In this document: one piece after another, positions 22,398 to 25,900 of the stretch
Layout: every line of letters begins with the position of its first letter
How positions within the stretch are numbered: the first letter of the stretch is position 1
Assembly: GCA_929200255.1 (NCBI GenBank)
Contig: CAKMYZ010000001.1
Coordinates: 310,001 to 374,000, forward strand
Reading direction: 5' to 3'
Length of the DNA stretch: 64,000 nt
Origin: an uncultured Alphaproteobacteria bacterium
GTDB taxonomy: Bacteria; Pseudomonadota; Alphaproteobacteria; Rhodobacterales; Rhodobacteraceae
Notes under the pieces: model-generated
What the model was told of the DNA's origin: nothing
What the model saw: only the letters and a program-made list of their open reading frames with translations
Databases searched by the model: none
Program-made: the position numbers and the translations under genes

Positions 22398-22964
22398 TTA
22401 GGCGACAGCGCCGCGTGACAGTGCGGCAACGCCTGTGCGGGCGATTTCCTGCAATCCCAATGGCTGCATCAGATCGGCGAATGCGTCGATCTTCTCGGGC
22501 GTGCCCGTGATCTCAAAAATAAATGATTCCAATGTGCTATCGACCACACTTGCCCTAAAAATATCGGCCAGGCGGATCGCCTCAATCCGGTGATCGCCGG
22601 TGCCACTGACCTTGAACAATGCCAGTTCGCGCTCCACCGATGGCCCCTCGACCGTGAGGTCGTTGACAGCATGCACATCCACGATCCGGCCCAGCTGCGC
22701 CTTGATCTGGGTGATGATCTGCGGTGTGCCGGTGGTGACGATGGTGATGCGGCTGCGGTGACCCAGGTGATCCACCTCGGCCACGGTCAGGCTATCGATG
22801 TTATAACCGCGGCCGGAAAAGAGGCCGATGACGCGCGCCAACACGCCGGGTTCGTTTTCGACCAGCACGGCCAGCGTGTGCCGCTCCTCCTTGTCGGAAA
22901 AATTAGGCCGTAGGTCATAGGCAGAGTGGCTGGTTGTGCCTTTTTTGATTTTGAGCGGTGACAT
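22398..22964 (-). CDS. ilvN: Acetolactate synthase small (regulatory) subunit
   Basis: IlvN binds valine and controls the large subunit in branched-chain amino acid synthesis. The 188 residues hold an N-terminal ACT domain (about 28-100, TLAVLVENEPGVLARVIGLFSGRGYNIDSL) with the conserved effector-binding region, and a C-terminal ACT-like domain (about 110-180, VVDSTLESFIFEITGTPEKIDAF). It lies 81 bases after ilvI. That gap holds an exceptional inverted repeat. The start ATG 22964 is set by the family N-terminus (MSPLKIKKG). Confidence 0.95.
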   Translation of the reverse strand: MSPLKIKKGTTSHSAYDLRPNFSDKEERHTLAVLVENEPGVLARVIGLFSGRGYNIDSLTVAEVDHLGHRSRITIVTTGTPQIITQIKAQLGRIVDVHAVNDLTVEGPSVERELALFKVSGTGDHRIEAIRLADIFRASVVDSTLESFIFEITGTPEKIDAFADLMQPLGLQEIARTGVAALSRGAVA

Positions 22965-23045: not shown

Positions 23046-24800
23046 TTACACCATCACTGCGCCGTCGGATTGAATCGCGTTCCCCACATCCGCATTTTCA
23101 CCCAACAGCATTTCATTGTGCGGTTTGCCCGATGGGATCATGGGCAGGCAGTTTTCGTGCTTTTCTACCAGGCAATCAAACAGGACCGGGCCGTCGTGGG
23201 TCAGCATTTCCATGATCGCGTCGTCCAGATCGGCAGGATCATCGCAGATGATGCCTTTTGCGCCAAATGCCTCGGCCAGTTTCACGAAATCGGGCAGGCT
23301 TTCCGACCAACTGCTTGAATAGCGTTCCCCATGCAGCAACTCCTGCCACTGGCGCACCATCCCTAGGCGTTCGTTGTTCAGGATGAACTGTTTCACAGGC
23401 AGGCCATATTGCATTGCCGTGCCAAGTTCCTGCATGTTCATCAGCCATGACGCCTCACCGGCCACGTTGATGACCAGCGCGTCAGGATGGCCCATTTGCA
23501 CGCCGATAGAGGCGGGGAAGCCGTAGCCCATGGTGCCCAGCCCGCCGGATGTCATCCAGCGGTTGGGGTCTTCAAACCCCAGATATTGCGCGGCCCACAT
23601 TTGATGCTGGCCGACCTCGGTGCAGATATAGCGGTCGTGCTTCTTGGTCAGCTCTTGCAGGCGCGACAGGGCGTATTGCGGTTTAATGACCTTGCCCTTT
23701 TGTTCAAACTTCAGGCAGTCGACTTTCTTCCAGTCGTTGATCTGGTGCCACCACTTTTGGACATTCTCTTTGTCCGTCTTGCGACCGCGTGCCTTCCAAA
23801 CTTTCAACAGGTCTTCCAGCACATGCGCCACGTCACCCAAAATTGGGATATCTACCTTGATCACTTTGTTGATCGAGGATGCGTCGATATCAATATGCGC
23901 CTTCTTGGAATTGGGGCTGAAGGCATCCAGACGCCCGGTGATCCGGTCGTCAAACCGCGCGCCGATGTTGATCATCAGATCGCAGTCATGCATCGCCATA
24001 TTGGCCTCGTACAGCCCATGCATCCCCAGCATACCAACCCAATTGTCGCCGGATGCGGGATAGCAGCCTAAACCCATCAGTGTTGAGGTGATCGGGAAAC
24101 CTGTCGCCGCGACCAGTTCGCGCAACAGCTGGCTGGCCGCTGGGCCAGAATTGATAACACCGCCGCCGGTATAGAAAATTGGCCGTTTGGCTGTTTCCAT
24201 CGCCGCGGCCAGTTCGGTGATCATGTCCATGTCACCTTTGATCTGCGGGTTGTAGTGCGTCTCGACCTGCCGTGCTTCGGTGTATGTGCCGGTGGCGAAC
24301 TGCACATCTTTGGGGATGTCGATGACAACGGGGCCGGGGCGGCCAGAGGTGGCGATATGAAACGCTTCATGCATGACCGCGGCCAATTTGTCGGTCTCTT
24401 TCACCAACCAGTTGTGTTTGGTGCAGGGGCGGGTGATGCCCACGGTGTCCGCCTCTTGAAACGCATCTGACCCGATCATGAAGGTCGGCACCTGACCGGT
24501 CAGTACGATGATCGGAATGCTATCCATCAGCGCATCCGTCAGGCCGGTGACGGCATTGGTGGCGCCGGGGCCGGATGTCACCAAGGCCACACCGGGCTTA
24601 CCCGTCGCGCGCGCGTAACCTTCTGCTGCATGTACTGCACCCTGTTCGTGGCGGACCAGCACATGCTTGATGCTGTTTTGCTGAAAAATTTCGTCATAGA
24701 TCGGTAGGACCGCACCACCGGGGTAACCAAAGATTGTGTCCACGCCCTGATCAATCAGTGCCTGAACAACCATTCTTGCGCCCGTCATGGCTTTTGTCAT
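23046..24800 (-). CDS. ilvI: Acetolactate synthase large (catalytic) subunit
   Basis: This ThDP- and FAD-dependent enzyme condenses two pyruvates to acetolactate, or pyruvate with 2-oxobutyrate, the first step of valine, leucine and isoleucine synthesis. The 584 residues show YPGGAVLPIYDEIF (N-terminal domain), RHEQGAVHAAEGYARATGKPGV with the ThDP-activating glutamate, and the C-terminal ThDP motif AGEASWLMNMQELGTAMQYGLPVK. The start and the leader sequence upstream are on the minus strand, where an attenuator precedes the gene. It forms an operon with ilvN. Confidence 0.96.
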   Translation of the reverse strand: MTKAMTGARMVVQALIDQGVDTIFGYPGGAVLPIYDEIFQQNSIKHVLVRHEQGAVHAAEGYARATGKPGVALVTSGPGATNAVTGLTDALMDSIPIIVLTGQVPTFMIGSDAFQEADTVGITRPCTKHNWLVKETDKLAAVMHEAFHIATSGRPGPVVIDIPKDVQFATGTYTEARQVETHYNPQIKGDMDMITELAAAMETAKRPIFYTGGGVINSGPAASQLLRELVAATGFPITSTLMGLGCYPASGDNWVGMLGMHGLYEANMAMHDCDLMINIGARFDDRITGRLDAFSPNSKKAHIDIDASSINKVIKVDIPILGDVAHVLEDLLKVWKARGRKTDKENVQKWWHQINDWKKVDCLKFEQKGKVIKPQYALSRLQELTKKHDRYICTEVGQHQMWAAQYLGFEDPNRWMTSGGLGTMGYGFPASIGVQMGHPDALVINVAGEASWLMNMQELGTAMQYGLPVKQFILNNERLGMVRQWQELLHGERYSSSWSESLPDFVKLAEAFGAKGIICDDPADLDDAIMEMLTHDGPVLFDCLVEKHENCLPMIPSGKPHNEMLLGENADVGNAIQSDGAVMV

Positions 24801-24841
24801 CTGTCTCGCGTCCTTCGCGTATCTGGTTTCTCTTTGGTCAC

Positions 24842-24868
24842 AAAAAAACCCCCGAGTTTCGTCGGGGG
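24842..24868 (-). terminator. Attenuator terminator upstream of ilvI
   Basis: On the minus strand CCCCCGA and TCGGGGG form a seven-base stem around six bases, followed directly by seven T. It lies between the leader peptide stop and the ilvI start, the classical place of a transcription attenuator. A perfect 9-base stem (GCGCATGGG/CCCATGCGC, 24868-24910) abuts it and shares one base, and its 5' arm includes leader codons 12-14. Confidence 0.85.
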
Positions 24869-24894
24869 CGCATGGGATCGTTATGGTCTTACCG

Positions 24895-24942
24895 TTACCG
24901 GCCCATGCGCGTGTCTTCCAAAATTAGTACGACGTGTGTCAT
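24895..24942 (-). CDS. ilv leader peptide (15 residues, too short for the ORF track)
   Basis: Reading the minus strand from ATG at 24942 gives MTHVVLILEDTRMGR and then TAA at 24895. AAAGGA lies six bases upstream, so translation should be efficient. Five consecutive residues are V-V-L-I-L, the three end products of the ilv pathway, and the terminator hairpin begins 27 bases after the stop. This is the signature of ribosome-mediated attenuation: scarcity of charged Val, Leu or Ile tRNA would stall the ribosome and favour read-through into ilvI-ilvN. The exact alternative pairing that disrupts the terminator is not resolved. Confidence 0.85.
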   Translation of the reverse strand: MTHVVLILEDTRMGR

Positions 24943-25067
24943 CAGGATTCCTTTGTGTGCAAAGACCCTAATGCGCCGGTTTGACGGGGTCAACAGCACA
25001 AGTGGAGAAAATGTCGTCTTGGGGCGGGTTTTCGCAACTTTCTTTCAGATGCGGGGATTTGTGATAT

Positions 25068-25766
25068 TTAAAGGTAGCTGCGGCGCCGTAGCCGGTTGCG
25101 CCCTGCGCTCGCTATCTCGCTGCCAAAAAGCAGCAGGTGCGCCAGTGTCATGATGCATAGCAATACAAGGGCGTAAGCGATCAAAATTTGCACCATCGGC
25201 ACCTGAAAGTTCAGCTGAGGCAGATTTGCAATCACGACCGGCGCATACCATGACACGAAAGAAATCATCCCCATCGTGACAAAGATGAATTTCTTGTGGA
25301 ACGGCACGCCACCCAGCATCGTGCTGCCGATCTGCCCATACATGAAGGGGATCACCGTGCGGTGGATGAACCAGCCGTTGAGCGAAAGAATGGTGACGAT
25401 CACCATCTTGGCCCAGACCTTTTCATTGCCCAGTTTGACCGGATCGCTCATCCAATAGAATACCAGAAAACTCAGGCCGGTGACCCACAAAAGTTTGAGT
25501 CCGACATTCACCAGATCAGCAAGGAAGTGGAACATCTCGAACTTCTGCTCGGTCATGTGCTGACCAAGGAAAAAGCGGATGATCATCAGGTCCAGCAGTG
25601 TCGCGGCACCCAAACCCATCGACAGGCCGATGAAGTGGAAAATGCGGATGATGCCGCGCGTCATTTGTTCAGGATCAGAGGCAAGAGCGCTGATAAGTTG
25701 TGTCAGTTCCAACAGGGTGACCTTTTGTCTTCTTGGCTCACCCCCAGCAACAGCAAACCAAATCAT
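25068..25766 (-). CDS. Multi-pass inner membrane protein of unknown function
   Basis: About 230 residues with four or five membrane segments (for example FHFIGLSMGLGAATLLDLMIIRFFLG, LLWVTGLSFLVFYW, FVTMGMISFVSWYAPVVIANL and ILIAYALVLLCIMTLAHLLLFG). I do not recognise the family. His residues next to the first membrane segment (IFHFIGLSMG and MFHF) might bind heme or metal, but this is weak. The start is uncertain: ATG 25766 and TTG 25712 are possible, the latter with AAAGG upstream. It is downstream of YghU on the same strand and has no clear operon partner. Confidence 0.7.
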   Translation of the reverse strand: MIWFAVAGGEPRRQKVTLLELTQLISALASDPEQMTRGIIRIFHFIGLSMGLGAATLLDLMIIRFFLGQHMTEQKFEMFHFLADLVNVGLKLLWVTGLSFLVFYWMSDPVKLGNEKVWAKMVIVTILSLNGWFIHRTVIPFMYGQIGSTMLGGVPFHKKFIFVTMGMISFVSWYAPVVIANLPQLNFQVPMVQILIAYALVLLCIMTLAHLLLFGSEIASAGRNRLRRRSYL

Positions 25767-25900
25767 ACTTCCGTTCAGATGTGCCACAAACACCTGACAC
25801 AGCGTTATTGAGCGCACCGTGCCCCCGTTTTCGCAATCGCGGGGTTGGATTGGCCAATTCTCGGCAAAAACTGGCCTACAACTGTTTCCGCCTACGCGAA

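Follow-up and report, generated by a model that had tools for sequence, protein, structure and literature searches.

Upstream of the acetolactate synthase genes in the window (the whole 64,000-nucleotide stretch of DNA that was analyzed) lies a leader element that, with a probability that we put at about 0.85 from sequence and its conservation, controls the ilvI-ilvN operon by ribosome-mediated transcription attenuation; judged by the same comparisons, this element is retained in most genera of the Rhodobacteraceae. The locus is carried on the minus strand in the order gene 25817-25068, promoter-like sequence, 15-codon open reading frame (ORF), terminator, ilvI, and ilvN. Sequence matches firmly identify both structural genes: ilvI (23046-24800), encoding the large subunit of acetolactate synthase, scored 1122 bits against NF006581 (cut-off, 974) and contained Pfam TPP enzyme domains, and the small-subunit gene ilvN/ilvH (22398-22964) scored 220 bits against NF008864 (cut-off, 119) and matched PF10369. 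The gene at 25068-25817, apparently encoding a membrane protein of 249 amino acids, yielded no NCBIfam or Pfam match at an E value of 0.001. The parts of a leader that the original prediction had placed before ilvI-ilvN were all found in the sequence, and the attenuation mechanism that it had proposed appears to be supported in outline by the conservation of the codons, the stem, the terminator, and the promoter-like sequence.

The leader ORF demanded by ribosome-mediated attenuation, with a ribosome-binding site and a run of end-product codons, is present before ilvI-ilvN at 24895-24942 on the minus strand. It encodes MTHVVLILEDTRMGR through the codons ATG ACA CAC GTC GTA CTA ATT TTG GAA GAC ACG CGC ATG GGC CGG TAA, so that, as had been predicted for this 15-residue peptide, five branched-chain amino acid (BCAA) residues, VVLIL, follow one another at positions 4 to 8, and it is preceded by the ribosome-binding site AAAGGAA (24948-24954); in most relatives, the leader ORF is preceded by a site of the AAGGAG type. 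The consensus of the Rhodobacteraceae leaders is Mxx[VLI]5-G-x-x-RMGR, followed by the stop codon. Within the run, codon choice departs strongly from that of the ilvI genes: CTA accounts for 51 of 87 Leu codons at position 4 of the relatives' leaders versus 1.5% of Leu codons in ilvI, and GTA accounts for 87 of 132 Val codons at position 6 and 90 of 123 at position 8 versus 3.2% of Val codons in ilvI. Positions 4, 6, and 8 therefore appear to be occupied by rare synonyms, as expected of sensitive control codons, and CUA is the best-known sensitive control codon of leu attenuators (PMC1183508). Codon 9 (24918-24916, minus strand) is GAA in the window; where relatives have Gly at this position, GGA is used in 87 of 101 cases versus 4.7% in ilvI, which is seemingly an RNA-level preference.

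A promoter and a terminator flank this ORF. The promoter that an attenuator calls for is represented by a putative, conserved promoter-like sequence at 24965-24993 on the minus strand, consisting of TTGACC (24993-24988), a 17-nucleotide spacer, and TAGGGT (24970-24965); it escaped a sigma-70 scan of the window that required strict hexamers and emerged from comparison with relatives. TTGAC followed after 16 to 18 nucleotides by at least three of the six bases of TATAAT was present in 145 of 149 relatives' regions, versus a mean of 3.3 in shuffles, and it stands nearly always 22 to 33 nucleotides before the leader ATG and is of the TTGAC-17-TAATGT type. Transcription is thus predicted to start near 24958, about 15 nucleotides before the leader ORF. 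Between the leader and the first structural gene, as an attenuator would have it, is the intrinsic terminator GCCCCCGA-CGAAAC-TCGGGGGT with a tract of six T (24842-24869, minus strand; located exactly, with the stem-loop at 24869-24848 and the T tract running to 24842). Nearly all relatives share a terminator of the form GCC[CT][CT]CG..CGGGGG[CT]T5-8, and the distance from stop codon to terminator is mostly 24 to 28 nucleotides.

Conservation was assessed in the ilvI upstream regions of some 190 loci, drawn mostly from single representatives of Rhodobacteraceae genera and supplemented with named public genomes, which gave 182 distinct regions; Yoonia was the nearest named relative by IlvI identity (90%). 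A generic pattern blind to the exact sequence, namely, an intrinsic terminator and an ORF that contains four or more Val, Leu, or Ile codons in a row and ends 15 to 40 nucleotides before it, was present in 152 of the 182 distinct regions, in none of 3,640 dinucleotide shuffles of the relatives' regions, in none of their reverse complements, and in none of 5,000 dinucleotide shuffles of the window's 220-nucleotide region. A covariance model trained on 79 sequences matched the element in 168 of 199 Rhodobacteraceae genera at an E value of 0.001 or better, a count that is not independent of the previous one since the training sequences came partly from the same genomes, and it found a single element in the genome of the window (86 bits; second-best match, 20 bits). 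Conservation in close relatives had been named as a check on the original prediction, and leader codons, spacing, stem, terminator, and promoter-like sequence are indeed kept across the family. Outside the Rhodobacteraceae, few leaders were seen in ilvI upstream regions across the class, and matches to the exact stem used as a class-wide pattern were mostly unrelated to the element. The terminator does sit between two co-oriented genes, so that it might simply end the transcript of the upstream gene (25817-25068), the ORF being there by chance; such a reading is extremely improbable, since the ORF, its codons, and the promoter that lie between that gene and the terminator are conserved and no shuffle reproduced the pattern.

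Between the control codons and the terminator, the RNA can form a helix of exactly 9 bp, which we call stem A. Its 5' arm, GCGCATGGG (24902-24910, minus strand), begins with the last base of codon 11 and ends with the middle base of codon 14, and its 3' arm is CCCATGCGC (24868-24876, minus strand); the prediction of a 9-base stem was therefore accurate, whereas its assignment to codons 12 to 14 needs adjustment. Across the 79 sequences, 97% of the cells of stem A are paired. Its covariation is slight because its sequence is nearly invariant, and an RNAalifold consensus of the whole alignment recovered the terminator and only part of stem A; the folding z-score of the stem and terminator part of the window was -3.3. 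Selection at the RNA level is seen in synonymous positions. At codon 11, which may encode W, T, R, K, M, A, Q, L, G, or S, 149 of 151 leaders have G in the third position, and this G forms the outer end of stem A by pairing with the terminator's second base; Arg12 is CGC in 143 of 144 leaders versus 62% in ilvI genes, and CGG encodes Arg15 in 137 of 142 versus 20%. One relative (L045) has a compensated stem, GCACATGGG/CCCATGTGC, at the cost of an Arg-to-His replacement, and two divergent ones (L059 and L186) have lost RMGR and have built another helix at that location. These comparisons indicate that selection acts on the leader RNA as well as on its codons. A stop-codon hairpin, CCG-GUAA-CGG (24892-24901, minus strand), with the stop codon in its loop, was missing from the original prediction; it is paired in 88% of cases, and its outer pair covaries, occurring as C-G, U-G, U-A, A-U, or G-C and changed on both sides in eight sequences.

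The last two bases of the 3' arm of stem A (24869 and 24868) are the first two of the terminator, the closing G.U pair, which is G-C in most relatives, being counted. The single shared base of the original prediction is therefore two here and, with one mismatch allowed, 2 to 5 across the Rhodobacteraceae, and the arrangement that it regarded as unusual is not peculiar to this genome because it is normal for the family. A fuller antiterminator, pairing with the whole 5' arm of the terminator, was looked for in the window, and none was found; one lineage (L066) has a candidate, AGGGCGC/GCGCCCT, judged by eye. In the few leaders of the Rhizobiales type found before ilvI, the analogous stem ends 2 to 5 nucleotides short of the terminator, and the overlap takes values of -1 to -5 in these and in a small number of lineages belonging or close to the Rhodobacteraceae, so competition for the foot of the terminator cannot be a general rule. 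Five of the loci outside the Rhodobacterales, mostly from Rhizobiales (L107, L112, L113, L115, and L116), combine a BCAA ORF and a stem 2 to 5 nucleotides short with a different terminator sequence.

The consequences of the overlap were modeled by folding the leader RNA up to the end of the 3' arm of the terminator while its 5' end was removed stepwise to mimic masking by the ribosome. For the window, the bottom pair of the terminator had a probability of 0.08 if the free RNA started at or before leader nucleotide 32 and of 0.87 from nucleotide 35, so the leader fold, which the original prediction had offered as a check, is predicted to respond to the position of the ribosome; the Rhodobacteraceae mean rose from 0.37 to 0.94, a difference that shrank to 0.67 versus 0.95 when three further U residues were added. 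Pairing of the U tract with A-rich leader codons, which appears when the tract is included in the fold, was discarded because it is unlikely while the tract is still inside the polymerase. The usual length of a ribosome footprint is uncertain by a few nucleotides; given that length, the edge at nucleotides 32 to 35 would be reached by a ribosome whose A site holds codon 7 or 8. Since the foot opens and closes at the position of a BCAA stall, stalling is predicted to spare stem A and keep the foot of the terminator open. The foot was also open (P, 0.07 to 0.10) for all RNA starts from nucleotide -19 to 32, ribosome-free RNA included, and readthrough is therefore predicted when the leader is not translated. 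The upper terminator stem formed in every predicted state (the fourth pair had a P of 1.0 in the window), so that the exclusivity of the ribosome-controlled helix with the terminator extends to two foot pairs only and the proposal depends on these being decisive. From the way in which intrinsic terminators work, it is plausible that the loss of two foot pairs would be enough to prevent termination. Equilibrium folding of the window gave no protector (1:2) helix of the Escherichia coli trp type.

We suggest that RNA polymerase starts about 15 nucleotides before the leader ORF and that, when charged Val, Leu, or Ile tRNAs are short, the ribosome would stall at codons 4 to 8 and leave stem A free. 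Stem A would then form first and hold the two foot bases of the terminator, and a terminator deprived of its lowest pairs beside the U tract would let the polymerase read on into ilvI. With the tRNAs charged, the ribosome would reach the stop codon and cover the 5' arm of stem A, and with stem A blocked, the full 8-bp terminator would form and transcription would stop. The modeled switch thus works in the right direction for a biosynthetic operon. We lean toward stem A as an antiterminator that acts by foot competition, with appreciably less confidence than we place in attenuation itself. The overlap of only two bases, the persistence of the upper terminator stem in all predicted states, and the spacing of 4 to 8 nucleotides that separates stem from terminator in the Rhizobiales ilvI leaders and in the Atu_C8 RNA considered below would also suit a pausing or synchronizing hairpin that gives the ribosome time to catch up, in which case attenuation would be real and the terminator would be blocked by the ribosome in another way. 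We consider such a role for stem A rather unlikely, given that the two pairs that reach into the terminator are kept as strictly as the rest of the stem (paired in 78 of 79 and 79 of 79 sequences) and that the 5'-end scan of the leader RNA revealed no helix other than stem A that opens the foot.

Attenuators of this kind are already known, because alphaproteobacterial ilvB leaders and the attenuation of Caulobacter ilvBN have been described, and the element in the window is a well-conserved example with minimal overlap. A 2005 paper (PMC1273637) refers to an alphaproteobacterial ilvB leader peptide as previously described, citing Vitreschak et al. 2004; it resembles ours in the class of organism, the acetolactate synthase target, the BCAA leader peptide, and attenuation, and the leaders of Vitreschak et al. 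may well cover the element described here. Attenuation is established for ilvBN/ilvIH of Caulobacter crescentus (PMC4117421), which shares tandem Ile and Val codons in the leader, a terminator, and the same operon. Corynebacterium ilvBNC (PMC11857589) likewise has control codons for BCAAs, CUU and GUA among them, and an antiterminator that overlaps the terminator, but it has three hairpins with an anti-antiterminator, whereas no protector helix is predicted in the window. Within the Rhodobacterales, uORFC-8-2 before cysS (PMC8632094) belongs to the same order and has a two-stem leader, control codons, a terminator, and proposed ribosome-mediated attenuation; its Cys codons form part of the first stem, whereas the control codons in the window precede the stem.

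A low-threshold Rfam search matched RF02502 (Atu_C8) at 24833-24943 with 24.5 bits; as the gathering score is 50, membership was rejected, and Atu_C8 is treated as a relative. It has nearly the same stem (GCGCATGGG/CCCATGCGC), the stop-codon hairpin, a VVVGRRMG leader, and a terminator, but its stem stands about 8 nucleotides from the terminator and it precedes a Bcr/CflA efflux gene. Genuine members in Rhizobiaceae-type genomes (L197 at 1500-1620, L218, L220, and L221) encode leaders such as MNGLLTIVVVGRRMGEAA and, where checked, lie directly upstream of a Bcr/CflA efflux gene of the major facilitator superfamily (MFS) (TIGR00710 in L197 and L218). In another alphaproteobacterial family, an element encoding MHILIVVVGERRLDR (L226, 1487-1604, minus strand) matched the covariance model with 75 bits and also precedes a Bcr/CflA efflux gene, and a weaker match (L227), lacking a clean BCAA run, occupies the same position. 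A BCAA-type leader before an efflux gene is a puzzling combination. Rfam files Atu_C8 as a Rhizobiales sRNA; its leader peptide, stem, terminator, and position before the efflux gene are better read as those of an attenuator, which it probably is. That filing, the conserved RMGR sequence, and the trans functions published for peTrpL (PMC7298713), which like rnTrpL acts in trans in Sinorhizobium, might be taken to mean that a trans-acting product, either the leader peptide or the terminated RNA, is at work and that RMGR is kept for the function of the peptide. We regard this as very improbable, for the pattern of synonymous and compensatory changes suggests RNA pairing and not peptide sequence, and RMGR is replaced in three relatives (L059, L089, and L186); an additional role in trans would be compatible with attenuation.

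The finding is sound but ordinary, the two-pair foot competition without a protector helix being a testable detail and the efflux-gene relative being more curious. Only tentatively, and with less assurance than for the role of stem A, we propose that two helices make up a minimal attenuator, the antiterminator competing for no more than the two or three lowest terminator pairs, with no protector and with readthrough if the leader is not translated; the whole of the Rhodobacteraceae would share this design, and related leaders of other alphaproteobacteria would control a Bcr/CflA efflux gene. With so small an overlap, one could cleanly measure the number of foot pairs whose loss a terminator tolerates, and a leader without a protector helix offers a test of on-by-default behavior. 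For the Rhodobacteraceae, a large and ecologically important family, the element provides a well-bounded BCAA attenuator in most genera, one for which no Rfam model of its own scores above threshold. In plain terms, a tiny gene and an RNA stop signal probably let the cell sense a shortage of Val, Leu, and Ile, in what appears to be the alphaproteobacterial version of a classical switch.
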